Shown here piece after piece: positions 720 through 43,592 of a DNA stretch of 64,000 bases. The notes under the pieces were generated by a model. It ran no database searches and was not told where the DNA came from. It saw nothing but the letters and a program-made list of their open reading frames with translations. Source of the stretch: Chloranthus sessilifolius (taxonomy: Eukaryota > Streptophyta > Magnoliopsida > Chloranthales > Chloranthaceae); the NCBI GenBank assembly GCA_021018995.1, contig CM037596.1, forward strand, positions 90,775,184-90,839,183, read 5' to 3'. Numbering within the stretch: the first letter of the stretch is position 1; every line of letters starts with the position of its first letter. A program made the translations under genes and the position numbers.

Positions 720-1265
720 TTTGGAGCCGGGTTGTTACAAAAAAAATGAATTCGATCGGTTGAACATGAAAGTTCAATCGATTGAAGTGATTGTGGCACA
801 AAGGGAGAAACCCATGCATAAATGTGTCACCATTTTCCAATGTGAAGGAGTTAATTGATAAGACCTAAAACCATTTGTTTAATCAATTTTCAATCGATTG
901 AAAATTTCAATCGATTGAACAATATGTGAGGTCATTCATTCCTTCACTCATTTAATGCATGGCTATTTCCAAGGAGTCTCATGCCTTTTTTCAATCGATT
1001 GAAATAAGCCTTGCATTGATTTCTCCCGCAGCACATTAATGCATTTGACAAGGGTTTTGACTAATAGCCCTTTCTCTCAACCGATTGAATTTTTAAGAAG
1101 AGAATTCAATCGATTGAAACCAAAAAGGAAAATGAAGTGGGTGATTTGAAAAGTCATGTGATATGACTTTGAATTAACCTGTGGCAGCAAGAGTACTATG
1201 CGATCAGCTCGATCGATTGAATTTTATTTTCATTCAATCAATTGAGCAGAATTTCACCTTTATCC
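720..1265. repeat. Palindromic-word island TCAATCGATTGA (3' of pol)
   Basis: About ten exact or near copies of the 12-bp palindrome TCAATCGATTGA, some in close pairs, are scattered through otherwise unique AT-rich sequence. The island lies between the integrase stop and the accessory fragment. The same word recurs in the leader (7020-7545) and LTR (8550-8960) of the same element. Confidence 0.85.
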
Positions 1266-1400
1266 TAAAAGTACCCCGAGTCACTCAATTGACTCCTACC
1301 ATTTAACACAACAATCAAGAACCATACAACTAAAATCTACCCCACTGGGTTGCCTCCCGAGTTACGGCCGAGTTTACGGTCGATACCGACCGATTCTTCA

Positions 1401-2483
1401 TCACATTGGCGGCTCAATGAGATCTGTTTCTTCAGCCATCATTTGAAACTTTGACTCCAACAGCGGTTTAAGCCGTTGACCATTTACTTTCAGAATTCGA
1501 TTATCTTTGATGTCTCTAATCTCGACAGCACCAAATTCAGATGTGGAAATGACCTGAAAAGGTCCCTCCCATCTTGATCGTAATTTTCCCGGATGAAATT
1601 TTAACTTTGAATTGAGCATTGAACCAAACTTTTGCCCCGGATGAAATTCCTTTCTGGAGATTAACTCATCGTGAAGCCTTTTGGATCTTTCCTTGTAAAG
1701 TCTAGCATTCTCATATGCATCATAACGTAACTCATCGAGTTCATTTAGTTGCAGACGACGATTAGATCCAGCAGATTGCATGTCAAAATTAAACCATTTG
1801 ATTGCCCAAAAGGCTTTGTGTTCAATTTCAACTGGAAGGTGACACGCCTTCCCAAACACAAGCCGAAATGGAGACATTCCAATTGGTGTCTTGAATGCCG
1901 TCCTGTATGCCCAAAGAGCATCCGATAGGTGAAGAGACCAATCCTTTCTATCTGTTCTGACAGTCTTTTCTAAAATCCGCTTGATTTCACGATTCGACAC
2001 CTCAACTTGACCACTAGTTTGCGGATGGTAAGGTGTTGCCACTTTGTGAGTGACTCCATATTTCTTCATTAAAGTTGCAAACTGGCGATTGCAAAAGTGT
2101 GAACCACCATCACTGATGATAGCTCGGGGTATTCCGAATCGGTCCAACACGTTCTCCTTAAGAAACTTTACCACCACCTTGTGGTCATTCGATCGAGTGG
2201 CTATAGCTTCCACCCATTTTGAGACATAATCTACAGCCACCAAAATGTAGAGAAACCCAAATGATGGGGGAAATGGTCCCATAAAGTCGATTCCCCAAAC
2301 GTCAAAAATTTTGACAACTAAAATCGGGTTCAACGGCATCATGTCTCGTTTAGAAATATTTCCCAATTTTTGACATTTTACACATCCCTTGCAATAATCC
2401 ATTGCATCGCGAAAGATAGTGGGCCAGTAGAATCCACTTTGTAAAATTTTGAATGGGGTCTTCCCCCAAAGTGACCTCCACAA
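1401..2483 (-). pseudogene. Integrase (Athila-type pol, C-terminal part)
   Basis: A frame of 360 codons covers most of the integrase. The zinc-finger CxxC half (CKGCVKCQ) comes first, then the catalytic core with Asp in GIDFMGPF, Asp in SDGGSHF and Glu in [13 protein letters not shown], then the C-terminal region with [14 protein letters not shown]. Integrase inserts retrotransposon cDNA into the host genome. The His half of the zinc finger ([10 protein letters not shown]) is in another frame just upstream at about 2485-2530, so one frameshift separates the two. The core residues look intact. The ATG at 2483 is internal to the polyprotein and is not a real start. Confidence 0.9.
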
Positions 2484-3395
2484 GCTCCATTATGACAGAA
2501 ATTCATCACGCTTGATTGTTCTTCTTTGGGCACACATCGTCGGATTATCTGATCAGAGCAGAATTTAAACAAGTGTGGTTCATCCCAGAAGTAGTGTTTC
2601 ACTTGGGAGAAGAACAAATTTTTATCATTTTTACCCCACTGCAATGGGATTTGACCCATAACGAGGTAATTGACAATGTTTGCATACCAAGGAGTTCCAT
2701 TTAGAGCCGCACGGATAACCATCAATTGCTCATCGGGAAAGGTATCTCGAATAGGTTCTGCAAAAGATGTTGCTTCAGGAAGTATACGAGACAAGTGGTC
2801 TGCAACCACATATTCAACTCCCTTTTTGTCTCGTATCTCAAAATTGAATTCTTGCAACAATAGAATCCATCTGATCAGTCTTGGCTTTGTATCCTTCTTT
2901 GCCAATAAGTACTTAAGCGGAATGATCGGAAAAACTATGATCTTGGACCCGAGCAAGTATGACCGAAACTTGTCCAACGCATAAACTACGACCAATAATT
3001 CTTTCTACGTGGTGGTGTAGTTTATTTGGCGTCGATCAAGATTTTACTTGCATAGTAAATTACATGAGGTAATTTATCTACTCTTTGGCCTAAAACCGCT
3101 CCAATTGCATAATCTCGCGGCACATTAGTTCAAAGGAAGCAGTAATCCGGAGGTTGAATTATGGGAGCATTGGATAACGATTCTCTTACTTTCAAAATGC
3201 CTTCATGCAATCATCATCAAAGATGAAAGGAACATCCTTCCCAAGCAAGGTACATAATGGTTTAGCCACCTTGCTAAAATCTTTGATAAATCTTCTGTAA
3301 AATCCCGCATGCCCCAAAAATGATCGGATTTGTCGAACACTCCTTGGTGGTGGCAAATTAGCAATTAAGTCGACTTTTGCCTTGTCGACTTCAAT
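2378..3395 (-). pseudogene. RNase H region of Athila-type pol, decayed
   Basis: The frame from 2995 down carries the end of RNase H ([12 protein letters not shown], with the conserved D-H-L-S-R) and the linker into integrase with the His pair of its zinc finger. RNase H removes the RNA strand during cDNA synthesis. Between 3000 and 3395 no long frame remains although sequence resembling the RT connection and RNase H core is expected there, so several small indels or stops have accumulated. The segment links the RT frame above 3396 with the integrase frame below 2483. Confidence 0.75.
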
Positions 3396-4232
3396 TCATT
3401 TCTTGGAAATGATATGCCCTAACACAATTCCCTGTTGAACCATAAAATGACTCTTTTCCCAGCTTAAAACAAGATTAGATTCTACACAACGTTGTAATAC
3501 CTGTGTCAAATGGTTCAGACACATTTCAAAGGTCCTCCCAAAAACCGAGAAGTCGTCCATGAATACTTCGATAAATTTGTCAACCATATCCGAGAATATT
3601 GCTAACATACAACGTTGAAAAGTGGCTGGCGCATTACAAAGTCCGAAAGGCATCCTTCGATATGCAAAGGTTCCATAAGGGCAAGTAAACGTTGTCTTTT
3701 CTTGGTCTGATGGAAATACAGGCACTTGATTGTATCCCGAGTAACCATCAAGAAAACAATAATATTCTTGTCCTGCCAACTTTTCTAGAATCTGATCAAT
3801 AAATGGCAGGGGAAAATGGTCCTTTCTCGTGGCAGTGTTCAATTTCCGATAATCGATACATACACGCCATCCAGTGGTCTCACGTGTAGGCACCAATTCC
3901 CCCTCGGTGGTCTCCTTCACTGTTATTCCCGATTTCTTTGGAACAATCTGAATTGGACTTACCCATTCACTATCTGAAATTGCATAAATGATTCCTGCAT
4001 CAAGTAATTTGATAATCTCTTTCAAAACAACTTCTTTCATGTTGGGATTCAGCCGTCTTTGTGCCTCTCTTGATGGTGTGCTACCTTCTTCAAGGTGGAT
4101 CTTGTGCATACACACCGACGGATCTATCCCTTTTAGATCGGCTAATGTCCATCCGATTGCTCTTTTGTAGTCCTTGAGTACTCCAATTAGTTCTCCTTCT
4201 TGCTTTTCTGATAAAGTTGCAGAGATTATCAC
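3396..4232 (-). pseudogene. Reverse transcriptase (Athila-type pol)
   Basis: The frame of 278 codons shows the RT blocks in order: WVSPIQIVPKKSG, WRVCIDYRKLN, FPLPFIDQILEKLAG, FLDGYSGYNQV, TFTCPYGTFAYRRMPFGL, CNAPATFQR and the catalytic FMDDFSVFG, then LGHIIS. This enzyme copies retrotransposon RNA into DNA. The Athila/Tat group typically has this MDDF form. The frame is part of a longer polyprotein; the downstream connection domain runs into frameshifts at about 3395. Confidence 0.93.
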
Positions 4233-4262
4233 CGGAAGTGTTTCAGATGGTCCCAGGAAAAC

Positions 4263-5180
4263 CTACTTAAGTGAATCAGGTAACTGTTTCAACTCAAGAT
4301 TTGGTGGTTGCTCAATTGAAGGCATCAATTTTGGTTTTTCCACCACGGGTAATGGTTCAATTCTCACCTTCCATGGCTTCTTCTCCTGAGACATTGAGAT
4401 GGTGTTCATTTCCTCGAAATTTTGCTCAACACTTCCTCCCTCATCATAGATTGCCAGCAAGGCGGTTTCAAATTCCTCCTTAGTGAGCATCGAGGGAAGC
4501 GCTTCTTCAACCACTTCATTAACCTGGTCAATATAAAAGCAATCAACCTCTTCTTCGTTGGAAAAATGGGTCATAGCATTGAACACATTCAATCTCACTT
4601 TCATATTTCCAAAGGAGACATCCATCACTCCTGTGCGACAGTTAATACAGGCATTTGCAGTAGCAAGGAAGGGACGTCCAAGGATAATGGGGATTTGGTT
4701 TTCTGATTTGACTCGTTGTTCCATATCCAAAACAATAAAGTCCACAGGAAAGACAAATTTATCGATTCCTACCAAGACGTCCTCGATGATACCCCTAGGT
4801 CGTCTTTCAGACCTATCTGCTAATTGAAGTGTTACCGCAGTCGATTGCAATTCACCCAGGCCTAATTTTTCGAACACCGAGAATGGGATCAAGTTCACAC
4901 TTGCTCCCAGATCTAAGAGTGCTCTTTCAATTGTTTGTCCACCAATAACACATGTAACAGTTGGGACTCCAGGGTCCTTAAGCTTTGGTGGCGCATTCAA
5001 CTTCAGGATGGAACTGACTTGATTAGTCAGGAACACTTTCTTGGACACATGTGTACGTGTCTTCCTCTTTCGGGTGCATAAGTCCTTGAAGAACTTGGCG
5101 TACGCAGGAACTTGGTTAATGGCATCGAGCAAGGGAAGATTAATCTTTACTTGCTTAAATGTTTCGAGAATATCGTCCAT
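4263..5180 (-). pseudogene. Aspartic protease region (Athila-type gag-pol)
   Basis: The protease block reads LLDLGASVNLIPFSVF, where the usual catalytic triad D-S/T-G appears as D-L-G, followed by IILGRPFLAT, the typical second motif. Upstream are LNAPPKLKDPG and TRKRKTRT, found between gag and protease in Athila polyproteins. The enzyme matures the Gag-Pol polyprotein. The S/T to L change at the triad would be expected to hurt activity. The frame ends at 4263 shortly before the RT frame begins in another phase. Confidence 0.85.
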
Positions 5181-5502
5181 TTTTGAGGACCCTTCCCCAA
5201 CTGGATGGAGGTGTAAGGGACTTGGAATGGTGCCTTAGGTGTATGGGGATTTATTTCCATTCTTTGGATCCACTTCAAGTTCCGAACATTTTTGGGATTT
5301 TGTTCTTCTTCTCTTTCTGGTTCTTCTTCCTTTTATTTTTTTCTATTTCTTGACTTTAGATGGAATTTCAACTTGGTTCCACTCGACCACTTCTCAAGAC
5401 CGTTCTGACCTTGATTGATGGCCCTTCACCGAGATGGTGCGTGGCCTCGCTGGTTGTTGATAGGTTGGCTAGAAGCCTTCCTCTTCTCTTTGACTCATTT
5501 GG

Positions 5503-6956
5503 TTAGCCAATTGAGATCCGATCTTGCATTTTAGCCATGGACTGCTGGTACGCTTGCATAGTTTGTTGTTGAGCTTGCAGAGTTTGCATCAATTTTTCTT
5601 CAAAATCAGAATTCCTTGAACTTGAAGCATTGGTTTGGTTGAAATTCTGATGTTGACGATGCTCAGAATATGGGTGCTGATAATTCAAATTTTGTTGGAA
5701 ATTCGAATTTCGTTGGAAGTTAGAATTCTGGTGTAGATGAAGACCTTGTTGTCCACTTGATGTATTTGCTTTATACTGCTGGTTTCCTTGTCCAGTTTGA
5801 CTTGATCCTCCCCACCCTAAGTTAGGATGGTTTTTCCACTCAGGATTGTAGGTGTTTGAATAAGGATTCCTATCTTGCCGTTGATATGACTGAGTCACAT
5901 TAACTTGCTCCTGGGGATTTGATTCTTCGGGAAAAATCATCAGAGTGGTTGGACACTCGTTAGATGTGTGACCTTGATTCTCACAAACAGTAGGGGCATT
6001 GAGGGTTTTAGCTTGCTGAGTTGCGGCAAGCAACATATTCATTTGTTTTGACAACATATCCACTTTTGTTGACAACTCAGAGGTATTGTTGTTAACGTCA
6101 AACAACCCCTCTTTTGTCAACACATGAGACTTTGTTGATAAATCACGGTTAACACGTCCCAAAGTTTCGCTTTGCATTGAGGTTTGACTCAACCTTTCGA
6201 ATAGAGTCCAAATTTCGTCATGCTCTTTTATGGAATAGGATCCTCCACACGATGCATTGACCATACGTCTTTCTTCTGGGATCAATCCATTGTAAAAACT
6301 CTGAACTTGTTGCCATCTTGGAATATGATGATTAGGGCAGCTTCTAAGCAATTCCTTAAAACGCTCCCAACATTCGTGAAATGTTTCAGCAGGTTGCTGA
6401 GCATAAACCAGAATTTTCTGACGTAACTCGTTGGTTTTACTCATGGGAAAATATTTCTTTAAGAATTCACGTTGCAACTCAGTCCAACTCGTGATGGATC
6501 TTGGTTCTAACGAATTAAACCACGATCTCGCCTTATCTCGCAAAGAGAAAGGAAAAAGTCGCAATTTAGCTATTTCGTCAGTCACATTATGAACTCTAAA
6601 CATTTTGCATACCCCAACGAATTCGGTCAGATGAGCATACGGATTCTCATTACTCAATCCGTTAAAGATGGGCAACATTTGAATCATTGCCGATTTGAAT
6701 TCAAAGTGATTCCCTGGAATGGGAGCATGAACAATACTATCTTGATCCTCGTAAGGACCAGGATCATAGTATTTCCTTCTCGGTGGTTCATAATGGTTTT
6801 CACCATTATTGTTGTTGTGTACATTCCTTTCTCCTTCTCTTTGTCTTCGATCGAGTTATTTAATCGATTGTTCTTTCTTCGATTTGTTTTCCAAGCTCGC
6901 TCGATTTCCCGATCCAACGGTTGAAGATTTGGGCGATGAGATCGGGTAAAGCTCAT
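5503..6956 (-). pseudogene. Gag capsid protein (Athila-type)
   Basis: The main frame (6687-5503, 394 codons) holds the retrotransposon gag domain: KARSWFNSLEPRSITSW, FLKKYFPMSKT, ETFHECWERFKELLRSC, FYNGLIPEERRMV. It ends in a Q- and N-rich tail and a short coiled region (QAQQQTMQAYQQ). Gag builds the particle in which reverse transcription occurs. The N-terminal part (RSHRPNLQPLDREIERAW, near 6950-6890) lies in another frame, so at least one indel falls between about 6690 and 6860. No intact CCHC zinc knuckle was seen. Confidence 0.87.
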
Positions 6957-7019: not shown

Positions 7020-7545
7020 TTTTTATATTACAATCGATCGATTGAAGCAGTGGGAAAAAAATAAAATCAAATAATTCAATAGATTGAATTCTAAAATCAA
7101 TAGATTGTTTTTATCAATTCAATAGGTTGAATTCCCAGATTCAATAGATTGAATTTATAAATTCAATCGATTGAAATCCCAAAATCAATGGATTGAATAT
7201 ATCAATTCAATAGATTGAATTCCCAAATTCAATAGATTGAATTTATAAATTCAAACGATTGAACTCCCAAAATCAATAGATTGAATTCTGGAAATCAATG
7301 GATTGAATATATCAATTCAATCGATTGAGAATGGGAACAACCAATAATGTCAATCAATCGATTGAACTGATAAGTTCAATTAATTGATAGGACATTCAAA
7401 TGCAAAAATCTGACTGACAAGCACAGTCAATCGATTGAAATTGACAAGTCAATCGATTGACTAGCAAACAGTGATGCAATCTCCGCTTCTCAGTCAATCG
7501 ATTGAATATGAAAAATCAATCGGTTGACTGGCAACTACAGAATAA
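7020..7545. repeat. Palindromic-word island TCAAT(C/A)GATTGA (leader)
   Basis: More than fifteen copies of TCAATCGATTGA or one-base variants (TCAATAGATTGA, TCAATGGATTGA) lie between the primer site and gag. Successive words between about 7090 and 7325 start 21-22 bp apart, with variable 9-10 bp spacers. This is a phased array rather than a simple tandem repeat. Confidence 0.88.
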
Positions 7546-7582
7546 AAATCTCCTTAAAAAAATAATAAAATTTTGTCGCAAT

Positions 7583-7600
7583 TCCCCGGCAGCGGCGCCA
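7583..7600 (-). other. Primer binding site, tRNA-Asp type
   Basis: The minus strand reads TGGCGCCGCTGCCGGGGA immediately downstream of the LTR end. TGGCGCCGTTGCCGGGGA is the usual Athila/Tat primer site, complementary to the 3' end of tRNA-Asp; one base differs. The site fixes the minus-strand orientation. Confidence 0.85.
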
Positions 7601-7606
7601 AAAACT

Positions 7607-9100
7607 TGATCGGTTTTAAAGTGTACCCTTGCAAGTGCACAAGTTCGATTGTAGCACGGTGAAATTAAGGGTGTCGAACCCACAGGGAAGCGCAAAATTA
7701 GATTAATTTTAAAGAGATTTCAAAGACCCAAGGAAGTACCAAGGGTGAGAGATTTCATTGTCAAGATTTACCACTACACAATGCAATAATCAAAAGAACT
7801 AAATCAAGCTATGCACGGATGAACTATGATTAAGAAATTAACAATGATGAAATGATCAAGGAGTTGCTAACCCTAGATTTATAACTTTTCTACAATCAAC
7901 CACACAATTTCATGTTAAATCATTATACCATCATTTAACTACAAGAAAAACGAATCGATGAAAATGCAATTATTGATTCGGCATACCCTATCCGAACACT
8001 ATGACGCATCCAATCACGGCATGCATCATGCGAAAGGCATAGCGTATCTCAAATTCGAAATCACAACCATAAGAATCAACCGCACGGCATCCTATATCGA
8101 TCTACAAGATCGATCTAGGTGGAATAATTCGTTTATTGTCGCCGATCACACGGTCGACGGCTATAAACGAGTATTCGATGATAACACAATGAAGCACACA
8201 CTAAAAGCCGTACGATTCAATAATTCTAACAAGAAATTGTAAGCTTAAAAGTAAGTTAGTTACTCATCTAGGGGTCGCTTCCTCCTTGAACGAGGGGTTT
8301 AGCCGCTCATCCTTGATCCACACGCACAATGTAAATCGAAAGCCATCACAAAAATTGCTCTTTTATTTATCAACCGCTTGATCTTTTTGGAGAAGATCAC
8401 AACCTTACACAGCTTTTTATCTAAATACAAAACTAAAAATAACAAAGAAAAAATTGCTAAAGGCCCTAAGAAAGTCTACCGAGCAAAAGTCCCCCCGAAC
8501 CCTAAACATCCTGTTGTTTAAATAGGGCCCGGGCTAAAATTATTCCATATCCGAATCAATAGATTGAATTTTGAAATCAATCGATTGAATTCAAAATTCG
8601 AATTTTGGAGGCTCATTTGCATTCCCAAAATCAATCTATTGAATTTAAGGAATTCAATCGATTGATTTTCGAAAATCAATCTATTGAATTCCAAATTCAA
8701 TCTATTGATTTTGGAAATCAATCTATTGAATTCCAAATTCAATCTATTGATTTTGGTGGCTCATTTGCATTCCCAAAATCAATCTATTGAATTTAAGGAA
8801 TTCAATCGATTGATTTTCTAAAATCAATCTATTGATTTTGGTGGCTCATTTGCATTCCCGAAATCAATCTATTGATTTTTGGAAATCAATCTATTGATTT
8901 TTGGGCAACTTTTTAAACTCAATCGATTGAGTTTCAAATCTCAATCGATTGAAATGGGCATGTGACATATTTAACTCTCAAAACTGTGGCTAGACCAATC
9001 TGTCTTTTTCACGGATTTCAGTGCTTCCGCTGGCTCCATGGTTCAAAGTTCATATAGTCCCTTAATTTTATTCACTTAAGCTCTTTCAACATCCCACGGT
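7607..9100 (-). repeat. 5' LTR of the Athila-type element
   Basis: The LTR ends, in the sense direction, in ...GATCA a few bases before the primer site at 7600. Its final part contains the GTGCACTTGCAAGGGTACAC block and a TCGAACCCACAGGGA-like block common in plant Athila LTRs. The outer boundary near 9100 is estimated because the partner LTR is absent. The LTR includes the word island at 8550-8960. Confidence 0.6.
8550..8960. repeat. Palindromic-word island TCAATC(G/T)ATTGA (LTR)
   Basis: Copies of TCAATCGATTGA and the variant TCAATCTATTGA are packed through about 400 bp, many 17-23 bp apart. A larger block that includes GGCTCATTTGCATTCCC is repeated three times. Same word as in the leader and 3' region of this element. 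Confidence 0.85.
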
Positions 9101-9436: not shown

Positions 9437-9670
9437 AAATCAAGGTTCGAATCCAAATTCGAAGTTCGAATCCAAATTCGAAGTTCGAATCCAAATTCGA
9501 AGTTCGAATCCAAATTCGAACGTTCGAAAGTGGATTCGATAATCGATTTTGGCTCTGTTCTGTCTGGTTCGATTTCTGAAGGAAATCGAAGTTCGAATTC
9601 TGAAGGAAATCGAAGTTCGAATTCTGAAGGAAATCAAAGTTCGAATTCAAATTCGAACGTTCGAAAATTG
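9437..9670. repeat. Palindromic-word island TTCGAA (solo LTR)
   Basis: GTTCGAATCCAAATTCGAA (19 bp) is repeated about four times in tandem. After a short unique stretch, a 24-bp unit with GTTCGAATTC and GAAGGAAATC is repeated about three times. Every unit contains the palindrome TTCGAA. This matches the position of the word islands in the related LTRs. Confidence 0.85.
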
Positions 9671-10565: not shown

Positions 10566-10666
10566 GTAATGAGGATGATTTAGGCACTGAGGATTTGGAT
10601 CTTGAGGATTCTAACTACGTTCTCGAGGAAGAATCAGAACCTCCTCCCGACGAGTTCTTTCCTTGA
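10566..10666 (+). other. LTR-encoded acidic exon candidate (solo LTR)
   Basis: After TATGTCACAG a frame in phase 1 (GT then AAT GAG) runs 32 codons to TGA: NEDDLGTEDLDLEDSNYV, then LEEESEPPPDEFFP. It is strongly acidic. The related LTR at 26381 has LEEESEIPPEEFFPI in the same frame. In the 17 codons aligned from NYV or DYV to FFP, seven of the ten differing codons are synonymous, which points to protein-level selection in the past. Confidence 0.6.
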
Positions 10667-10768
10667 CCTAGGCTTGTGGACTTGGTATATTATTTTGTCT
10701 GTTTTGTTTTGGATCATTCAGAATTATGGGCCCACAGCCTTATTTTTGTTACATTGATATCATTTTGA

Positions 10769-12167: not shown

Positions 12168-12239
<72 letters not shown>

Positions 12240-16690: not shown

Positions 16691-16791
16691 TCAAGGAAAG
16701 AACTCCTCCGCAAGGATCTCTAATTCCTCCTCAGAAATATAATCAGAGTCCTCTAGATCGGGATCCTCTGAACCATGATCAATCTCAGCAC
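16691..16791 (-). other. LTR-encoded acidic exon candidate (minus-strand element)
   Basis: Frame: SAEIDHGSEDPDLEDSDY, then ISEEELEILAEEFFP and stop TGA. It aligns with the acidic frames of the other LTRs and ends in the same EEFFP. Here the expected acceptor CACAG|GT reads CACAA|GT, so a G to A change has removed the AG at the aligned position and left an AG one base later, out of phase. Confidence 0.55.
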
Positions 16792-32373: not shown

Positions 32374-32605
32374 CCCACCTCGATGAACTCCCCGATTCGG
32401 ATCTAAAACCCTCGTGAACCTAGGATGTCGTGAACCAAGAAGCAAACCTTCGAGAGAGGTGAGTTATTATGGGTTTTATGTGGGTTTGAGAGTCATAGAT
32501 CTGCATTTATGGGTGTGTACATGATTCGTGGAGAATCATGAGTTTTAGGGTTGAAAAGAGTTTTGATTCAACAACCCCATTAATGACAGCTTGACTGTCA
32601 TATCC

Positions 32606-33240
32606 GATCAATCAATTTGAATAATTGATCGATCAGTCTGTAATCCGATCGATCAAACTAAGGAGTTGATCGATCAAATTTTATTATGCCATTATGAAAT
32701 AGAAGGGTGACTTTTCTTGAGAAGTTAGAACCCGATATGCTCGATCGATCAAACATGGGGATTAATCGATCGAATTTGGTACTGATCGATCAAATTATGA
32801 AGTGATCGATCAGGTGTGAGCAAATCGATCAATTGAAAATTGATCGATCAAACTGTGAGTCTGATCAATCAAATCAGGGATTTGATCGATCGAATTTTAT
32901 AAACAAACTATGAGAACAGAAGGTTGGTTTTTCTGCAAATTTGATCCAATCGATCAAACATGAGGATTGATTGATTGAATTTGGGGCTTGATTGATCAAA
33001 TAGGAGATTGATCGATCAAAGCCAGAGTTGTTTTGTATATATGAGAATGGTAGGTTTGATCGATCAACAGTGAAGATTGATTGATCAATTTGGAAATCTG
33101 ATCGATCAGTGAATAGATTGATCGATCAAATGTCCTCTGTTCTGAAGGTACAGGTTTGAGGCATCCGATCGATCAATGAAGAAATTGATCGATCAGATAT
33201 GAATTCGATTGATCAAATAGGAAGATTGATCGATCAAATC
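32606..33240. repeat. Palindromic-word island TTGATCGATCAA (5' LTR)
   Basis: More than twenty copies of GATCGATCA or close variants (GATTGATCA, GATCAATCA), mostly 20-21 bp apart. Compared with the 3' LTR (43032-43592), this copy is longer and more of its words carry C to T or G to A changes. Confidence 0.88.
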
Positions 33241-34032
33241 CCCTGTTCTTTTGAACTATCTCTGTTTTGGGTTTTTGGGAATCAAACACTGCCGCTCAGT
33301 GTACTTTTACTATTCTGACTCGTAGTATATGATATGAATGATCTAGGTCAAAGCCTGGACACCTTAAAAGGCTTTGGATTTGCTTAGAAAGATAAATTCT
33401 GAGGTAGGGGAAATCTAAATTAACTTATTTTTTATTTTGACGGTATGGTTTCTCTGAGCATCTGTATCTGTTTTCTTCTGTTATACAATCTCTGTATCTG
33501 CTTCTGCATCTGTTCTGTTATCTGACTCCGAGGTCTAATATGTATTGATTTTAAAGTTCATTTGACGAATCCCACCGACTCGGCGGTATACCCGTGACCG
33601 GCACGGCGGAATATCCGTGCATCTGCTTTGGAAATTCTTCGACACAATTACACTCCTTAGATGAGGCATTATTGCAAATTCTGAAATTGTTCATTGAACG
33701 ACGATGGTCGGGATAACCCATCGGCACACATCTGGTTACCACGTGCTATATTCACAGGAGTTATTTAAGTATATAGAATTTAAGATAAACACTATCGTAC
33801 GCATGCATTTAATCACTCTGAGATTAGGTCTATTCTTATATTTCTGCATCTGCTTGTTCACTTAAAAGTTCTGTATTCAAATTATTCTGCATTAATTCTG
33901 TTTCATCTGCACTATGTAATACCTATCTGTCTGAGTTATATCCTATATGCCATGCTTTACATTTTGAATGCAATTTACTTGAATTTCTTCTATTGAGCTT
34001 AGATGGTAGCTCACCCTATTGTTATATAATAG

Positions 34033-34145
34033 GTTCTGAGGCTAGGGTCCCTAGTACAAAGAGCGACCCAGACTATCAGCCGGAGACTAAGGCTAAGGCT
34101 GAGGAGGAGGACACGGATATCCAGACAGACGAGTTTTATCCTTAG
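34033..34145 (+). other. LTR-encoded acidic exon candidate (nested element, 5' LTR)
   Basis: After TTATATAATAG a phase-1 frame reads SEARVPSTKSDPDYQPETKA, then KAEEEDTDIQTDEFYP and TAG. It differs from the 3' LTR copy (44386-44504) by a few substitutions and a short in-frame length change. Confidence 0.6.
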
Positions 34146-34273
34146 CCTGGGTATTTTAGTATTATATTTTTGTGGGTCTCTGGATATGTATTTTGGATTA
34201 TCTGTGCGCCTGGTGGCCACCTTCTGTATTATATTTTTATAGATGTTATTACTGTATTTATATACATTCTATA

Positions 34274-34342
34274 GGAACCACTATTGGGAACCACTATTTT
34301 TGAGTGATGGATGTCCATCACCATTGGTTCTTTTTGGTTCCT
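34274..34342 (+). other. Conserved LTR hairpin (nested element, 5' LTR)
   Basis: GGAACCACTATTGGGAACCA, then TGATGGATGTCCATCA, then TTGGTTCTTTTTGGTTCC. Three nested pairings are visible: GGAACCA/TGGTTCC outside, GAACCA/TGGTTC inside, and TGATGGA/TCCATCA in the loop region. Confidence 0.7.
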
Positions 34343-34556
34343 TTTTGAGGATGTATATTCTTGTTATTTATATGCATTGTTTATTCTCTTTCTTTTCTTT
34401 TGAGCCTCATATGATGACTCGATCTGCCACTACTTGACAGTGTCTGCTCTGATTTCCGCTAGATGAGCAGACACTCTTTGATTTGTCTTAGGGATCATCC
34501 AGAGCATGATCTTGATGGCTCGAGTTTTTGGGTGCGGAAATCCGGGCTGTCACAGT

Positions 34557-34660: not shown

Positions 34661-35939
34661 ATGGCCTCTAAGTTCAGAGGAGGACGTAGTGGCGGAAGAA
34701 AAGGACAAAGAGAGGTTCCTTTTCAAGAGATTCCTGATGTTACCGGTACATCAAGGGGATTGGGGTTCCTATCGGGGGACAATGCAGTTCACGTAGGATG
34801 TAGAGGAGGTGGTGATGGAAGAATGGAGCAAGTGTTGGAAGCCTTGGCGATCAACATCGCTCAGTAGATTGCTGCTTTGAATCAACAAGCAGCTAGACCA
34901 CCTCACCAACCCAGTGATTTCGCCGAGTTTAGGAGAATGAGACCTCCTAACTTCTCGGGTCAAACTGATCCCATTGAAGCTGAGGGTTGGATAGAGGAGA
35001 TGGAGAAGTTATTTGAAGTGCTCTAGTGCACTGATGTGGAGAAAGTGCGTTGAACTACTTTCAAGTTAGATGGTGATGTCGGACCTTGGTGGAAGTCGGT
35101 ATCACGGAATAGAGAGAGAGAATTCCCTAATACTCCTTGGACTTGGGAGGAGTTTACTGAAGTCTTCTACAACAAATACTTCCCAAAGATAGTGAGCCAT
35201 CAGTGGGAGGTTAAGTTCATTGAGTTGAAACAAGGGGCTATGACAGTAAGGGAATATAGTGCTGAGTCTGATCGATTATCTAGATTTGCACCACAGCATG
35301 TAGCCACTAAGCTAATGAGAGCTCGTAAATTTCAGCTTGGCTTGAGACAGAACCTACAAAAGGATGTAGCAATGTGGGAGATGAAGACATATGAGAGTGT
35401 GATGTCCAAAGCTCTCATCGTAGAGGAGGAGAACCAGAAACAAATTACTTGGAGAGACAAGCAAAACAAGGAGAGGTCTTACCAAGGACAATCTCAAGAC
35501 CCTGACCACAATAAGAGGGCTAGATTCTCCAGACCTCCTAGGTACCCTTCTCACTCCCGACCAGCTATATCTTCTGGCCCGAGTTCGTATCAGAGGTCGT
35601 CAGTGCCTGCATCATCCAGACCATTCAGAGTGTCTGGTTCTTCTGTCAGTGGAGCTTCTACAACACAAGGATCTTCACGGGTCTCTTCATTCAATCCGGC
35701 TCCAATATGTGTAAAGTGTGGGAAACCACACAAGACAAAGGATTGCAGGAGAGATACAGGGGCATGCTTCAGGAGTGGCAAGATGGGCCACCTGGTTAGG
35801 AACTGCCCAAAGGAGAGCAAGGAGAGCAAAGAGCAGGCTGGATCGGTATCCACTCAGAGATCGTCTCGACCTGTTGTTCAAGGCCGAGAATATGTTGTCA
35901 CCGCAACTGATGTTGTGACATCAAATGATGTCATTCAAG
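34661..35939 (+). pseudogene. Gag (nested chromovirus)
   Basis: One continuous frame from ATG 34661 (MASKFRGGRSGGRKGQ). Gag motifs: MRPPNFSGQTDPIEAEGW, VGPWWKS, TWEEFTEVFYNKYFP, ELKQGAMTVREYSAE, LSRFAPQHV. Two zinc knuckles follow: CVKCGKPHKTKDC is complete, but in CFRSGKMGHLVRNC the second Cys is Ser. Three in-frame stops (34865, about 35023 and 35051) interrupt it; there are no frameshifts. The coding match ends at ATTCAAG (35939), where an intron-like insert separates gag from protease. Confidence 0.9.
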
Positions 35940-36068
35940 GTATCTTTACGTTTTGAGGGTTAAATTATTCATTTATGCATATACCATATCATGTTTTGAC
36001 GAATTGATGCATGTGAATGTTTATATTTATTGTGCATTAACTTTATATGTTTGTTACACCAATCAAAG
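35940..36068 (+). other. Intron-like insert between gag and protease (129 bp)
   Basis: ATTCAAG|GTATCTTT at the left, CAATCAAAG|GTACACTT at the right, with TTAAC as a branch candidate about 28 nt before the AG. Joining the flanks gives VIQG|TLVMRRMGHE, the continuous gag-protease reading expected in related elements. The insert is AT-rich and contains stops. Confidence 0.68.
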
Positions 36069-36660
36069 GTACACTTGTCATGCGACGTATGGGTCATGAG
36101 AGTCGAGTGGATGCTCGTGTATTGATAGACCCTGGGTCTAGTCATTCATTCATCACTCCGTCATTCTCTAAGAAGTTACCCATCGTGCCCAAGACTCTCA
36201 ATTTTATTTTTGCCGTAAACATCCCTACGAGAAGCCCAGTCAGCACGAATACAGTATGCCAGTCGATGATTGTGATGATTGAAGATCACGAGACGATGAC
36301 GGACATGATCACATTGAACATGGAAGGTTCGATGTGATACTTGGAATGGATTGGTTGTCAGCATACCATCCGAGTGTGGATTGCCTTCGAAAGATTGTGA
36401 CCTTCCGACCCCCAAAGAGGAAGTCCTTTCGCTTCTGTGGAATCAAATCCAAAGTCGTGCCATTCATTTCAGCTATTCGAGCAGAGCGCATGATGAAGAA
36501 TGGATGCTGTGGATTTTTTGCTTACTTGCAAGATCATCAAGAGAAGAAGAGGGACATCGCTCTTATATCAGTTGCTTGCGAATACCCTGATTTTTTCCTG
36601 AAGACTTACCCGGATTGCTACCTGATCGTGAGATCGAGTTCGCAATTGATCTGGCACTGA
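36069..36660 (+). pseudogene. Aspartic protease and linker (nested chromovirus)
   Basis: VDARVLIDPGSSHSFITPSF contains the catalytic region; DPGSSHSF replaces the usual D-S-G form, as in several plant chromoviruses. DVILGMDWL follows after a one-base deletion near 36330. A second one-base deletion near 36597 separates CEYPDFF from the RT start. The enzyme would cleave Gag-Pol. Confidence 0.85.
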
Positions 36661-37320
36661 GTATAGAACCGTTGTCAAAGGCACCATACAGAATGGCGCT
36701 TGCAGAGCTAAAGGAACTGAAGGAGCAGCTTCAGGAGCTTTTGGACAAGGGTTTCATTGGGCCAAGTGTATCTCCTTGGGGAGCACCAGTGCTATTTGTA
36801 GAGAAGAAGGACGGTTTGATGCGGTTGTGCATTGACTACCGTCAATTGAATAAGATGACGATTAAGAATCGCTACCCACTGCCGTGGATAGATGACCTCT
36901 TTGATCAGTTACAAGGTGCAATATTCTTTTCAAAGATTGATCTGAGGTCGGGTTACCACCAATTGAAGATCAAGGTGGACGACATTTCTAAAACCGCTTT
37001 TCGCACGAGGTATGGGCATTATGAGTTCTTGGTTATGCCCTTTGGGCTAACGAATGCACCGGCGTCACTCATGGACTTGATGAACCGGGTATTCAAGCCA
37101 CACCTCGACCAGTCAGTGGCAGTATTTGTTGACGATATCCTCATATATTCGAAGAGAAGAGAGGAACACACTCAACATTTATGAGTTATTCTGCAAACAC
37201 TCAGAGACAACCAACTGTATGCCAAGCTTAATAAGTGCGAGTTTTGGCTTGATCAGGTCAGTTTCTTAGGACACGTTGTTTCTGAGGATGGTACCACCGT
37301 CGATCCTGTAAAGATTGAAT
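36615..37320 (+). pseudogene. Reverse transcriptase (nested chromovirus)
   Basis: [99 protein letters not shown] and the catalytic [11 protein letters not shown] are all present. A stop at 37182-37184 follows QHL, then the thumb continues ([20 protein letters not shown]). All active-site residues look intact. Confidence 0.94.
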
Positions 37321-37325
37321 CGGTA

Positions 37326-37920
37326 GTGAATCGGGAGCAACCGAAGACCGTGACCGAAATCCATAGTTTTCTTGGTTTGGCAGGATACTATAGACGGTTT
37401 GTTGAAGGATTCTCTAAACTCTCAGGTCCGCTTACGCATCTTACAAAGAAGAACGCTAAGTTTGAGTGGATGGAGCAATGTGTGAAGAGTTTTCAAGAAA
37501 TCAAGACGCGTCTGACTACAGCACCAGTGTTAGCTATACCTTCTGGTGGAGGAGGTTTTGCGATATATAGCGATGCGTCTTACAGTGGTTTGGGTTGTGT
37601 TCTCAACCAACACAAGAAGGTTATCGCATACGGCTCTAGGTAGCTTAAGGATCATGAGAAGAACTATCCCTCACATGATCTAGAGTTAGCAGTGGTGATC
37701 TTTGCTTTGAAGATATGGGGACACTACTTATACGGTGAAATATTTGATATCTTCACCGACCACAAGAGCCTAAAGTATCTGTTCACACAAAAGGACCTGA
37801 ACATGCGACAAAGACAGTGGATGGAGTTCTTAAAGGACTATGATTGTTCCATCCAGTATCACCCTGAGAAGGCCAACATAGTGGCGGATGCATTGAGTCG
37901 AAAATCGACAGTACAGTTGG
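37326..37920 (+). pseudogene. RNase H (nested chromovirus)
   Basis: [38 protein letters not shown] with the first catalytic Asp, then a CAG to TAG stop at 37641, then [19 protein letters not shown] and [12 protein letters not shown]. RNase H degrades the RNA of RNA-DNA hybrids during cDNA synthesis. Apart from the stop the domain is complete. Confidence 0.9.
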
Positions 37921-39047
37921 CTCATCTCATTACGAGAGTGCATCGATGGCGTTTGTTAGAGGACGTGGCCTTGTGCGATACGAGGTTTGATGTGAAAGGT
38001 TTAGGAGCTTTAATGGCCACCCTGGTTATTAGGTCGACACTGTTCAAGAATATCCGCAAGCTTCAGATAGTCGACGACAAGCTAATGACCATTAGACAGG
38101 GTGTGATTAGTGGAACTAGAGCAGATTTCTCCATCAGGGAGGATGGTACTTTACTGTTCAGGGATAAAGTGTGCATACCTATCAATGTTGAGCTCCGAGA
38201 CACCATTTTAGAGGAGGCTCATAAATCCATGTATGCTATACATCCTGGGAGTACCAAGATGTATCAGGATTTGAAGAAAAGCTTCTGGTGGAGAGGCTTG
38301 AAGAAGGATATAGCTTAATACTTGTCCAGATGTCTAGTCTGCCAACAAATCAAAGTAGATCATCGAAATCCAGCGGGATTGTTGCAACCTTTGCCTATAC
38401 CGGAGTGGAAATGGGAAGCCATTTCTATGGATTTTATACTGGGGTTGCCAAAAACGTTGAGAAAACACAATGCCATCTGGGTCATTGTGGATAGATTGAT
38501 TAAATCTGCACATTTTCTGTCGTACAGCACTACATACATAGCCAGTAAGCTTGCAGAGCTATATATAAAGGGGATAGTTAGACTTCATGGTATACCAGTC
38601 AGTATTGTGTGTGATCATGATCCACTATATACATCACAGTTCTGGCAGAGATTTCAGGAGGGCATGGGGTCTAGACTTGATTTCAGCTCAGCATTCCACC
38701 CATAAACAGATGGGCAGACTGAACGAATGAACCAGATCATAGAGGATATGTTGCGTGCTTGCATGTTGGACTTTCACGGGTCATGGGATCAACATTTACC
38801 TCTGATTGAGTTCGCTTATAATAACAGCTATCAGTCTAGCATTGGTATGGCTCCCTACGAAGCTTTATACGGACAACATTGCAAGTCTTCGTTGAACTAG
38901 GAGGAAGTTGGTGAAAAAATCATTTTGGGACCTGATATCGTGGATAGTGTGACCGAGACGGTTCGGTTGATCCGCGAGAGATTGAGAGTTGCTCAAAGTC
39001 GCCAAAAGAGTTAAGTCGACCTTCATCGGACGCAAGTCAAGTTTCAG
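37921..39047 (+). pseudogene. Integrase, exon 1 (nested chromovirus)
   Basis: [17 protein letters not shown] gives the His half and CLVCQQIK the Cys half of the zinc finger. The core shows Asp in AISMDFILGLP, Asp at the SIVCDHDP block (normally SDRD) and TERMNQIIEDMLRAC, with Glu in TERMNQ. Then FAYNNSYQSSIGMAPYEALY. Stops at 38318, 38703 and 38899, plus one near 39013; each is one change from a sense codon. Coding identity ends at AGTTTCAG (39047). Confidence 0.9.
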
Positions 39048-39121
39048 GCATACTTGACTTTACTAAAATAATTAGGTTTTCTTATTCGCTCAAATTGTAT
39101 TGGGCTAACACCTATTTTCAG
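39048..39121 (+). other. Intron-like insert in integrase (74 bp)
   Basis: Starts GCATAC (GT changed to GC, or a GC donor) after TTTCAG and ends CCTATTTTCAG before GTAGGAGA. CTAAC lies 14-18 nt before the AG. Same codon position as the 70-bp insert at 23240-23309, but the insert sequences have diverged strongly. Confidence 0.75.
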
Positions 39122-39541
39122 GTAGGAGATAAGGTGTTTGTGAAGTTCTCTCCCACTAAAGGCGTGATGCGTTTCGAAAAACGTGAGAAGTTGAGTCCAC
39201 GTTATATCAGACTTTTCTAGGTGCTTAGACGGGTTGGGGAAGTCGCATACCAGATTGCTTTGCCACCACAGTTGGCAAGCATGCACAATGTATTTCACGT
39301 CTCAATGCTAAAGAAATACGTAAAAGACCCAACACACGTCCTGGATTTTCAACCGATGGAGCTTCAAGAGGATTTGACTTTGATAGAGGAACCTATGCAG
39401 ATCTTGGACCATAAGGAGCAGGTGTTACGAAGTAAGATGATTCCACTTGTACTCATAAAGTGGAGGAATCACTCTTCTGCAGAGGCTACCTGGGAGCGCG
39501 AAGCTGAAATTCACGCACAGTACCCACAATTGTTCAACTGA
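39122..39541 (+). pseudogene. Integrase C-terminus and chromodomain, exon 2
   Basis: VGDKVFVKFSPTKGVMRF, KLSPRYI, then (after a stop near 39219) VGEVAYQIALPPQLASMHNV and FHVSMLKKYVKDPTHVLD. The chromodomain reads ILDHKEQVLRSKMIPLVLI, KWRNHSSAEATWEREAEI. It matches the element at 23310-23729 closely and probably reads methylated histones for targeting (family knowledge). Confidence 0.9.
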
Positions 39542-39735: not shown

Positions 39736-40070
39736 CGATCGATCAAAACCATGAATTGATCGATCAAGTGTGACTCTGATCGATCAACCTTACTAATTGA
39801 TCGATCAATATGAAAATTTCAAGTTAGAACTACCCGATCGATCAAATTAGGTATTTAATCGATCAATTGTTAATCTGATCGATAAATTTAAGGATTGATC
39901 GATCAAGTGCTTTTTGATTTTTTAAACATGTCTGATCGATCAATTGATATGATTGATCGATCAATTTTTGACTCCGATCGATCAACCTCAAGGATCGATC
40001 GATCAATCTATCAGGCTAGGGCATTTTCAATTTGCAAATCCGATCGATCAACTGAGCATTGATCGATCGA
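39736..40070. repeat. Palindromic-word island TTGATCGATCAA (before accessory ORF)
   Basis: GATCGATCA or a one-base variant begins at 39737, 39758, 39778, 39799; 39836, 39857, 39877, 39897; 39934, 39955, 39976, 39997; 40042 and 40061. Within each quartet spacing is 20-21 bp; quartets start 98-108 bp apart. Sequences between words are not repeated. Confidence 0.92.
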
Positions 40071-40303: not shown

Positions 40304-41708
40304 ATGGGACCGCGCATGAAGAATGCCTCACGCAAAATCCCTACTTCACAGGCGCGTGCATCGACTTCGCCCGTTGAACTTGTCGTGCCACCCACTGTAC
40401 CGCCCGTGGCACCGCCTATTCCGCCTATACCACCCATTAACCCACCCCAGCCGCCACTTCTTGAGCGAGAACTCCCACAGTACTTTTAGAATGCCAAAGG
40501 TTTCTTACCTGACCAAGAGTTTGTCCCGACTCTTTTTTATGATCGTCCCAAGATGACTTGGGGGATCGAGTACGTTGGGAAGCTAGGGCTCAAGCCCATG
40601 CTTAAGACCAACCACGACTACTATTGCCCACGCATAGTGCAACTGTTTTACCAACACCTACGATGTGGGAGTAGCCGACACCAGATGGTCACCACGATCG
40701 ATGGATTAGAGTATCAGTTTAACCATTTCCACATCTCTGCAGCTATATAGTGCCCCTCTGGGTACATGGAGACTTGTGGAATGGCGGCGCCCTACATTAA
40801 GGGCATTGCCTATGAGGACGTCATCGCTAAGATGACGCATGGACTTCATGGGTCGGGCCAATCAGTCAAGAGGGCCCAACTTCCTGATAACCTATGGATG
40901 CTTGACACTTACGCCAAGTGTGCCATTTACCCCTTCCTGCATAGATCGAAACGTACAGGCATCGTACAACAATTTTTGTTTTCCGCCTTTGAGAACCGTT
41001 GGTTCTCCGTCGCCGACATTATTATTGATGGCATGTTAGATGCCTTTGATCGGCTGACAAGGAAGGTGGCACCTAAGAAGGAGATGCCCTATGTAGACTT
41101 GATCACCCGCATGGTCGAGCAGTGCAATGCTATGTGGGAGACTTATAGTATGGCTCTAGGGGAGCCTAAGTGAAACGATAACGTTAAAGTCTTTCTCCTC
41201 AAAGACTGGACCAAGAGTTACAATCTCTTGGTCAAGCGACTACCTGATGAGGAAGAGGTTCCTCCAGTTGAGGCGGGAGCTGAGCCAGCTGCTGGAGCTC
41301 CAAATGTGGGGGAGGCACAGCCTAATCATCCACATCAGCCTGAGGTGCCTACCCGACCTACCCCTACTACATCACGTAGACCATCCCAAGCCTCTACATC
41401 ACGTCGTGCCGAGCCTTCCACTCTTACACTTGAAGCCCTCGTCGCCATCATGAACGAGAACAACAAGCGGCTGCACGAGCGATTGGACGGGATAGAGGAG
41501 TTCCATCGTCAGGTACATCGACGATTGGACTATCACAAGGGAATGCTTGAGCTCTTGATGCAGCACTCCTATGCGATGATTGCTACCTAGATGATAGCTC
41601 ATGCTCATCAGCACACCGTCGACCCTCTCGACTATCGCACTAAGCCCGCCAGACCGAGCCGACCTTCCCCACCTACGGAGCCAAGTCCATCATCAGCTCC
41701 ACTGGCAG
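40304..41708 (+). pseudogene. 3' accessory ORF, exon 1 (nested chromovirus)
   Basis: A single frame of 468 codons from ATG 40304 with four in-frame stops (40487, 40748, 41171, 41588) and no frameshift. Order: basic start (MGPRMKNASRKIPTS), proline-rich segment, AKGFLPDQEFVPTLFYD, core with PRIVQLFYQHLR, AYEDVIAKMTHGLHGSGQ and AQLPDNLWMLDTYAKCAIYP, MPYVDLITRMVEQC, then STLTLEALVAIMNENNKRLH and further heptad-like helix, ending PSPSSAPLA. Homologous to 19250-20548; that copy has W (NEYWGAKGF) where this one has the first TAG. It ends at GGCAG|GTGATT, a phase-1 donor. Function unknown; related in kind to Athila accessory ORFs. Confidence 0.78.
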
Positions 41709-41989: not shown

Positions 41990-42159
41990 GAGTCACTATG
42001 GAATGTTTTTGCCGAGAGCGTGCCGTTTAGGACGGATGCATCCATGTACAGATGCAATCCTCTGTGACATTCTTGGATGTCATACGCAGTACATCCAGGT
42101 TACTACGGATCTCGACCCTCCATAAGCGTGCTTAGTAGAGTCTATTGCACTGTGACCCA
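41990..42159 (+). other. Conserved 3' noncoding block
   Basis: Begins GAGTCACTATGG, ends TTGCACTGTGACCCA; contains GCATCCATGTACAGATGCAA and GTACATCCAGGTTACTACGG. Third copy of the block seen at 24079 and 18649. Confidence 0.72.
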
Positions 42160-42267
42160 CTCGTACTAATTAGGACAGTTTGTTTCTACGTTGTTTGATA
42201 AGTTAGGCTTAGGATGTTCCGTAGACCTGTCTAAGACTCCCTAATATTTTTTAGGATGAAAATTCCT

Positions 42268-42280
42268 GAGGGGGGGAGAA
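42268..42280 (+). other. Polypurine tract
   Basis: GAGGGGGGGAGAA directly before TGTAACGACCC, preceded by TTAGGATGAAAATTCC. Confidence 0.88.
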
Positions 42281-43031
42281 TGTAACGACCCTAAAATTCT
42301 AATAATATTTGACTACTTTGGTATCCGTGGCTAGCACGAAAATCGAGATAAAATTAAAATTTAAATAAAAGAATATTAATAAGGGAATCATTAAATCTAT
42401 AGGCGTGCGAAGTGATATGTCACTTACGACACAAATCTGAGATCCGATTGGATCCTTTATAAGATGCTGGATACGTGTGAGCGTGTGTGTGTGCTCAACA
42501 CCGGAAAGAAAACTTAAAGAGAGAAATATCTAGGATATTTCTTTATTTAGCATATAAGGGAAGGAAGAGATTGGACTCTACATCTCTCCATCTCTTTCTT
42601 CTAATCTGGTTTGGTTTCTACCTGCAAAACATCACAAGGTGTACGTGATTCGAAATTCCAGAGTGCTCCTTTTGTGAAACCTGTGAGAGAGAGAACCTCA
42701 CATTCAGGAAAGTCTGACCTAAAGCTTGAAGGAGTCGACATCTGCGTGTAAACATATCTGTGTGTTAGGGTGGAGTTGTGCACTTGATTCATTGGAGAAC
42801 CCACCTCGACAAACTCCCCGATTCGGATCTAAAACCCTCGTAAACCTAGGATGCAGTGAACCAAGAAGCAAACCTTCGAGAGGGGTGAGTCATTATGGGT
42901 TTTATGTGGGTTTGAGAGTCATAGATCTGCATTTATGAGTGTGTACATGATTCGTGGAGAATCATGAGGTTTAGGGTTGAAAAGGGTTTTGATTCAACAA
43001 CCCCATTAATGACAACTTAACTGTAATATCC

Positions 43032-43592
43032 GATCGATCAATTTGAATAATTGATCAATCAGTCTGTAATTCGATCGATCAAACTAAGGAGTTGATCGAT
43101 CGAATTTTATTATGCCCTTATGAAATAGAAGGGTGACTTTTCTTGAGAAGTTAGAGCCCGATATGCTCGATCGATCAAACATGGGGATTTATCGATCGAA
43201 TTTGGTACTGATCGATCAAATTATGAAGTGATCGATCAATCAATTGAAAATTGATTGATCGAACTGTGAGTCTGATCGATCAAATTTTATAAACAAACTG
43301 TGAGAACAAAAGGTTGGTTTTTCTGCAAATTTGATCTGATCGATCAAACATGAGGATTGATTGATCGATCAAAGCCAGAGTTGTTCTGTGTATATGAGAA
43401 TGGTGGGTTTGATCGATCAACAGTGAAGATTGATCGATCAATTTAGGAATCCGATCGATCAGTGAATAGATTGATCGATCAGATGTCCTCTATTCTGAAG
43501 GTACAGGTTTGAGGCATCCGATCGATCAATGAAGAAATTGATCGATTAGATATGAATCCGATCGATCAAATAGGAAGATTGATCGATCGAAT
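43032..43592. repeat. Palindromic-word island TTGATCGATCAA (3' LTR)
   Basis: About eighteen full GATCGATCA words plus variants. Runs at 43032/43053/43073/43094, 43169/43190/43210/43230, 43411/43432/43453/43473 and 43520/43540/43560/43581 keep 20-21 bp spacing. Confidence 0.92.

Follow-up and report, generated by a model that had tools for sequence, protein, structure and literature searches.

We analyzed a 64,000-bp stretch of the Chloranthus sessilifolius genome (the window, G000:C13:90775184-90839183; genome of 2.17 Gb in 32 contigs) and found that its long terminal repeat (LTR) retrotransposons carry islands of repeated palindromic words, in which the word is typical of the family and the place of the island is equivalent between families. 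The window contains an Athila-type element on the minus strand, a solo LTR (S), a minus-strand element of chromovirus type (M), a truncated chromovirus (T), and a nested chromovirus (N); the genes of these elements are interrupted. Judging from sequence, we consider it rather probable that the islands serve as binding-site arrays for the accessory protein that the element itself encodes, which is Transposase_32-like and would act as a self-regulator. A recognizer acting in trans is the best reading because the words are fixed within families, because the positions are fixed while the words differ, and because both islands of an element share one word.

Word islands lie at equivalent places in the elements of the window

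The Athila-type element carries three islands on the minus strand. The first lies in the U3 region of its 5' LTR (8550..8960) and consists of TCAATCGATTGA and variants of its center, with 15 words at no more than 2 mismatches and 10 of 14 steps measuring 21 to 23 bp. The second fills the leader between the primer binding site (PBS) and gag (7020..7545; 19 words, mostly in 22-bp steps), and the third lies between integrase and the accessory frame (720..1265; 9 words in irregular steps of 17 to 116 bp, as counted in the window). Element N, on the plus strand, likewise has three islands, built on TTGATCGATCAA and counted at no more than 3 mismatches: 23 words in the 5' LTR (32606..33240), 13 words between integrase and the accessory gene (39736..40070), and 19 words in the 3' LTR (43032..43592). 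All 16 exact copies of TCAATCGATTGA in the window fall within the three Athila-type islands, and all 13 exact copies of TTGATCGATCAA fall within the three islands of N. When up to 2 mismatches were allowed, we counted 45 Athila words in 1,483 bp of islands versus 17 in the other 62,517 bp, and 55 nested words in 1,531 bp of islands versus 6 in the other 62,469 bp.

The remaining elements each have an island in the LTR. In S (9437..9670, plus strand), words of ATTCGANNNTCGAAT type are arranged in units of 19 and 24 bp, and in M (17640..17775, minus strand), ATTCGANNNTCGAAT recurs in steps of 19 to 20 bp with one step of 48 bp. The island of T (25195..25555, plus strand) is weak, with 10 units of a CTCG..CGAG word at no more than 3 mismatches, two of them exact, in irregular steps of 13 to 76 bp. 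An earlier note on this DNA had proposed that each element has its own word. This goes too far: S and M both carry ATTCGANNNTCGAAT, which leaves four words for five element types, and the word of T is weak.

The same note had placed the LTR islands in equivalent positions ahead of an acidic reading frame, and the five LTRs measured bear this out: the frame begins 793 and 794 bp beyond the island in the two LTRs of N, 849 bp beyond it in M, about 850 bp in T (frame start judged by eye), and 896 bp in S. The note was also right to place an island between pol and the accessory gene of the Athila-type element and of N, and the family of M has such an island too (three or more near-words in 7 of 10 elements), as do the N' subfamilies described below (10 of 10). 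Steps of 19 to 22 bp in nearly all islands, by contrast, proved too strong a statement: only 349 of 556 steps pooled from the nested family fall in that range (mode, 21 bp), the rest being mostly larger gaps that recur, and the steps of the third Athila-type island are irregular.

We also counted even perfect palindromes of at least 10 bp against a local order-2 Markov model. Because this model was trained on the islands themselves, the null is strict. The Athila-type and nested islands contained 5, 10, 8, 12, 9, and 9 such palindromes versus 1.2, 2.6, 2.4, 4.6, 5.4, and 4.6 expected; the same count in the S, M, and T islands gave no clear excess (2, 0, and 2 versus 3.0, 1.2, and 0.8 expected). 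The count is a weak test that is blind to the spaced words of the S and M islands, and conservation across copies was used in its place.

Word and place are kept among relatives in the genome

Relatives of N were found by a search with a piece of its accessory frame, from which the best 150 of 33,816 candidates (66 to 100% identical) were scored. In 29 of the 30 best loci, at least four copies of GATCGATC were present within 1.5 kb, and the same 29 had three or more of them upstream of the accessory segment that matched. A further 20 loci were picked from those of 66 to 73% identity, and 19 of them had 5 to 11 copies of GATCGATC upstream of the segment. With the window copy counted, the array precedes the accessory segment in 48 of 50 copies (exceptions, L041 and L103), and the islands of this family hold 8 to 29 words each. 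Of the pieces fetched downstream, 12 in number, ten show the same array in the LTR; L072 and L077 enter other nested elements.

These two pieces had been candidates for a change of word within the nested family, a possibility we rejected when reading them showed other elements nested there. The insert in L077 is an Athila-type element (PBS identified by reading) with the word TCGATNNATCGA in its U3 region and leader (L077, reverse complement, 107-205 and 1773-1832). The insert in L072 is a chromovirus LTR, of a family that we call N', with the word GGTGATCGATCACC, and the neighboring stretch L086 has GGTGATCGATCACC before the accessory gene. Two further families, encountered by chance as insertions in the fetched stretches, carry words of their own at equivalent places.

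Relatives of the Athila-type element, obtained by a gag search (best 150 of 60,775 candidates scored), form two main groups of approximately 84 to 98% and 75 to 81% identity. Between 7 and 16 exact words were present in 15 of 17 fetched stretches, with one word in L111 and none in L120. Eight of the 17 have a PBS recognizable at no more than 3 mismatches, and in all eight, words lie between the PBS and gag. In seven, words lie on both sides of the PBS (2 to 6 exact on the LTR side, 6 to 12 on the leader side); in L121, which has only 502 bp before the PBS, they lie on the leader side alone. The centers of the Athila words read CT or AG in 68 of 154 words of the nearer group (L107-L113) and in 25 of 151 words of the other, and in the window element AG dominates the leader island and CT the U3 island (7020-8960). 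This is not the pattern left by CpG deamination, which therefore does not explain it; the AG and CT centers may represent a second accepted word or expansion of the array.

In the family of M, exact words were present in the LTR in 5 of 7 pieces and internally in 4 of 8 loci. Among ten more elements, at least three near-words were found in the LTR in 7, internally in 7, and at both places in 6, amounting to 42 near-words in 6.5 kb of LTR and 34 in 5.0 kb of internal sequence versus 8 in 31.4 kb of control. Overall, we observed neither free variation of the word within a family nor the absence of islands from most relatives: word and array alike are present in 48 of 50 copies of N and in 15 of 17 copies of the Athila-type element.

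In the whole genome, TTGATCGATCAA occurs 65,226 times versus 317 for the reversed word (an approximately 200-fold excess), and TCAATCGATTGA occurs 64,441 times versus 79 (approximately 800-fold). The 10-mer of T occurs 5,967 times versus 205 for its control. This excess does not confirm the word of T, because all three fetched clusters belong to one other family that does not align with the window. Its members (L164, L165, and L166, on G000 C1 near 18.37, 10.76, and 9.84 Mb) are 69 to 77% alike and have CTCG..CGAG palindromes in an array, and two of the three show a TATATATAG stretch at a distance of about 100 bp from it. On C1, clusters of CTCGCGCGAG are frequently paired at 5.6 to 6.9 kb. 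The family may represent an additional lineage that has a word of its own. Plant relatives were also sought in prokaryote and viral collections and by one protein search, and none were obtained.

Words are conserved over the spacers between them

In the internal islands of 29 of 30 N loci, with the window copy as the reference, the mean pairwise identity was 0.879 for words, 0.654 for spacers, and 0.599 for flanks; in the LTR islands (11 copies), the corresponding values were 0.874, 0.692, and 0.677. None of 387 circular shifts of the word mask equaled the observed difference in the internal islands and none of 560 in the LTR islands, and the higher conservation of words was repeated with two other references for the internal islands and with one other for the LTR islands.

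Within the words, CpG positions were only 0.768 identical versus 0.910 for the remaining positions, and 31 of 40 non-CG centers in N are CA or TG. The altered centers and the CpG decay are the mark of methylated CpG. Because CpG decays fast, as expected when it is methylated, the words have been retained despite high mutability.

The commoner half-site switches in both islands together

The N' family allowed the two islands of single elements to be compared. With 70 residues of the N' accessory protein as the query, relatives were obtained that were each at least 96% identical (best 150 of 18,705 candidates scored), and ten elements were fetched as pairs of internal and LTR islands. Each of these elements has the same word in the LTR and before the accessory gene. 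In all four elements of the 99 to 100% group (N'a), GTG half-sites prevail over TTG, both internally (11 versus 1) and in the LTR (16 to 24 versus 1 to 4). In all six elements of the 96 to 97% group (N'b), the balance is reversed, with 12 to 21 TTG versus 7 to 10 GTG internally and 32 to 39 versus 6 to 9 in the LTR. These counts in paired islands indicate that, between the two subfamilies, the commoner half-site switches from TTG to GTG in both islands together.

The accessory protein and a predicted acidic exon in the LTR

The accessory exon of N (40310..41708, plus strand, in pieces) encodes a proline-rich N terminus, a Transposase_32-like core, and a segment that by eye is coiled-coil-like, and it ends at a predicted splice donor, CAG|GT. 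Accessory pieces of N and M are 32% identical over 114 residues (E value, 7e-24), and the Athila-type piece resembles the M-family protein weakly (BLASTP, 39% over 46 amino acids; E value, 7e-5 for one comparison). The window pieces of the Athila-type and minus-strand accessory proteins had no Pfam match. Relatives matched Transposase_32 (PF20167) with 34.9 bits and an E value of 1.8e-8 (L061, M family), 18.1 bits (L032, N family), and 14.5 and 14.3 bits (partial N'b proteins); none of the scored relatives reached the 45-bit cutoff for the whole protein, and the match for the N accessory protein comes from relatives alone, below that cutoff. The accessory proteins are likely distant relatives of Transposase_32, as far as these profile scores go. 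Between N and M they diverge much faster than integrase does, with 40 to 41% identity versus 82% for the integrase core and 64 to 67% for the integrase C terminus. In N'a and N'b (L124-L142, even numbers), the accessory gene starts with ATGGGACC, followed by a proline-rich stretch of variable length and then a far more constant core; the start is frame-shifted in L126 and broken in L132.

The accessory frame of N leads into CAG|GTGATTACT at 41708|41709. This donor could be aligned in 27 of 30 loci, and GT is kept in 25 of the 27. The acceptor ATAG (at 44385) precedes an acidic last exon in the 3' LTR (44386..44504, plus strand), of which the 5' LTR holds a copy (34033..34145, plus strand), and its AG is kept in all 10 alignable copies of 14 LTRs. 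The acidic tail comprises approximately 37 residues after the acceptor, in the phase left by the donor. Substitutions among seven open acidic exons (21 pairs, which are not independent) numbered 113, 131, and 265 at the first, second, and third codon positions, an excess at third positions as for a coding exon. Tails of this kind, in which EEFFP or DEFFP stands close to the end, are also encoded in the LTRs of S, M, and T: in S at 10566..10670 (plus strand, ending ..EEESEPPPDEFFP, end approximate), in M at 16691..16791 (minus strand), and in T at 26405..26481 (plus strand, GYESDPDYVLEEESEIPPEEFFPI). Acidic residues interspersed with aromatic ones resemble activation domains.

A probable self-regulating accessory protein and rival explanations

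If the islands are binding-site arrays, the binder would be a sequence-specific protein encoded by the element, most likely the accessory (Transposase_32-like) protein. Each palindrome would probably be bound by a dimer on one face of the helix, the step being about two turns, and the spacing suggests that neighboring dimers are placed on the same side. Two control regions would be bound, namely, the LTR ahead of the genomic transcript and the region before the accessory gene, with the leader as a further site in Athila-type elements. In the nested family, splicing of its transcript into the 3' LTR would probably give the protein an acidic C-terminal tail resembling a transcription activation domain. 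The simplest circuit would be self-activation or anti-silencing of the family's own copies, with the family-specific word keeping families apart. Here, we infer that splicing occurs, that the accessory protein binds and dimerizes, that the tail activates, and that silencing is the target. Co-evolution of the word with a recognizing factor, as the note had suggested, may apply to the accessory protein.

Several observations weigh against this reading. N'b has the word of the more distant N and not that of its sister N'a, to which it is 96 to 97% identical over the 70-residue query, and this sharing cuts against a simple rule of one protein and one word; a single change on the N'a branch of a tree N,(N'a,N'b) would account for it. 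Among the internal half-sites of N'b, a quarter to a third are still GTG. A PDB sequence search for a DNA-binding fold gave no usable match (best E value, 0.89), and a Pfam scan of four accessory proteins (two of them partial) to an E value of 10 returned only PF20167 and two weak, unrelated families. The accessory copy of N in the window is interrupted. The acidic tail of N is open in 7 of 10 copies and interrupted in L073, L074, and L076, and the exon diverges more (0.21) than the flanks before (0.11) and after it (0.16), so that the constraint seen is on the reading and not on the DNA. In relatives of the minus-strand element, the open reading frame has an acidic run of its own, and no consistent donor was found (candidate donors in 4 of 5 anchored copies, of 8); a splice into the LTR is predicted from sequence for N alone. 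Word conservation could stem in part from array turnover and not from selection, and the internal and LTR spacers of an element are weakly alike (at most 0.04 of shuffles reach the observed value in 5 of 11 elements tested), which leaves room for copying between islands.

The words might instead be sites for host transcription factors or chromatin proteins, with a different host factor captured by each family. Host factors do serve plant LTRs, the words stand at promoter-like places, and a TCGA core is common to three of the four window words. We nevertheless regard this explanation as unlikely: the words differ among families residing in the same genome, are fixed within a family, and shift jointly at both sites, and 8 to 29 sites per island far exceed what ordinary promoters hold.

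Recognition by another protein of the element (integrase, chromodomain, or Gag) or an action at the RNA level, in packaging or dimerization, appears improbable. Self-complementary words could pair between RNAs, and the Athila leader island lies where packaging signals usually lie, but RNA pairing needs neither a 20- to 22-bp step nor arrays between pol and the accessory gene, and integrase, whose core is 82% identical in N and the minus-strand family, is far more conserved than the words.

Could the arrays be functionless minisatellites, expanded by slippage, with words homogenized and copied between islands? Tandem repeats in the strict sense do occur in some stretches, arrays range in length from 8 to 29 words, and the likeness of internal and LTR spacers in 5 of 11 elements fits such copying. 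Across copies, however, spacers drift nearly as far as flanks while words stay, and most adjacent spacers of one island differ when read side by side. Because the words are conserved over the spacers across copies, we hold this explanation to be highly improbable. We find it hardly credible that the islands, instead of being tools of the element, are targeted by host silencing or favored for insertion, even though CpG decay at word centers points to methylation and plant LTR elements are reported to target palindromes (PMC6911290), since a liability is not expected to be conserved word by word and retained at two control regions.

Generalized, the reading as a self-regulating accessory protein would mean that Athila and chromovirus Ty3/gypsy elements have private transcription-factor codes, in which an accessory protein that evolves fast, and that in the nested family bears an activation tail from an LTR exon, recognizes the family's palindromes in the LTR and in the internal promoter of its own gene. 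Many families in one genome would then regulate themselves orthogonally; we put this forward tentatively, as a possibility. The pairing of protein and array predicts which DNA each accessory protein reads and can be tested by in vitro binding. If it is true, sequence-specific self-regulation, known from VANDAL DNA transposons, would also be a strategy of retrotransposons, most of the approximately 130,000 exact matches to the two words in this genome would be explained, and naturally diversified pairs of protein and palindrome would be at hand for studying the evolution of DNA recognition.

Other features of the window

The pol and gag genes of the Athila-type element occupy 1404..6855 on the minus strand, with stops inside; the Pfam matches comprise gag (5506-6855), protease (4266-5234), reverse transcriptase (RT; 3399-4262), RNase H (2381-3004), and integrase (1404-2489). 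On direct reading, a stretch of TGGCGCCGCTGCCGGGGA type lies at 7577..7603 (minus strand) and resembles a PBS. A piece of the accessory frame lies at 254..628 (minus strand) and is the one that resembles the M-family protein by BLASTP. With its Pfam pol domains, a PBS of Asp-tRNA type (by reading), and an accessory piece after pol, the element may belong to the Athila lineage. The accessory gene of M lies in pieces at 19330..20571 (minus strand) and is called Transposase_32-like from the PF20167 match of its relative L061.

Element N, on the plus strand, consists of a 5' LTR with its left end missing (32371..34554, from repeat families), an interrupted region with gag, RT, RNase H, and integrase with a chromodomain (35054..39538, by Pfam), and a 3' LTR (42281..44905); the LTR stretches are 94 to 95% alike. 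The chromodomain matched Chromo (PF00385; E value, 5.8e-7; 29.8 bits, cutoff of 25.1), and SH3_Tf2-1 was matched as well. This set of domains places N among the Ty3/gypsy chromoviruses, and a PBS of Met-tRNA type was recognized by reading.

Where the minus-strand element meets the truncated chromovirus, 28 bp are perfectly duplicated in tandem (20754-20807, 1.9 copies). Imperfect repeats of GGAGACGGCT..AGCCGTCTCC at 27614-27964 probably come from a different transposon.

Comparison with known systems

In foamy retroviruses, the transactivator Tas/Bel1 is encoded near the 3' end, acts on both the LTR and an internal promoter before its own gene, and has an acidic activation region. The elements described here have arrays in the LTR and in the stretch before the accessory gene, where an internal promoter may lie; they differ in that the acidic tail would be a separate exon in the 3' LTR and in that the sites are long arrays of palindromes.

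In plants, the VANC anti-silencing proteins of VANDAL21 in Arabidopsis (PMC5735166, PMC10398659) are fast-evolving element-encoded proteins associated with short motifs repeated in noncoding regions, and the motif differs among relatives. A VANC protein also removes DNA methylation from its own family. The same trait was found here, namely, short motifs repeated in the elements' own noncoding regions and differing between relatives. VANDAL, however, is a DNA transposon, whereas our elements have gag, RT, and integrase domains and LTRs and belong to two Ty3/gypsy lineages. VANC has DUF1985/DUF287, and neither domain was among the Pfam matches, to an E value of 10, of the four accessory proteins scanned (two partial). 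The VANC21 motif, YAGTATTAC/T, is nonpalindromic, unlike the palindromes or spaced inverted repeats stepped by about two helical turns found here. Since both the domains and the class of element differ, we do not file these elements as VANC members.

Among plant retrotransposons, Retand TRP28 (PMC11963269) has an accessory open reading frame predicted to bind DNA and family-specific repeats between pol and the 3' LTR, for which its authors suggest a regulatory role; its frame is antisense and has the domain PF04195, and a palindromic word shared with the LTR is not described in the passages considered. Accessory frames of Athila and Tekay elements have also been reported (PMC11728184, PMC7264820), and that of a sunflower Athila element matches Transposase_32 (PF20167) in part (PMC11728184). 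The Tekay frame sits 5' of gag-pol, unlike the frames described here, and the passages considered of these two reports describe neither word arrays nor an LTR exon. The functions of such extra genes of plant LTR retrotransposons are called unknown in these reports (PMC11728184, PMC7264820, PMC11963269). In the open-license literature, covered by title and start of abstract (subscription journals and preprints lying outside), we found no palindrome arrays common to the LTR and the accessory-gene promoter of plant retrotransposons. VANC would be the closest functional analogue in plants and foamy-virus Tas the closest circuit, each by a likeness of working and not by a claim of descent.

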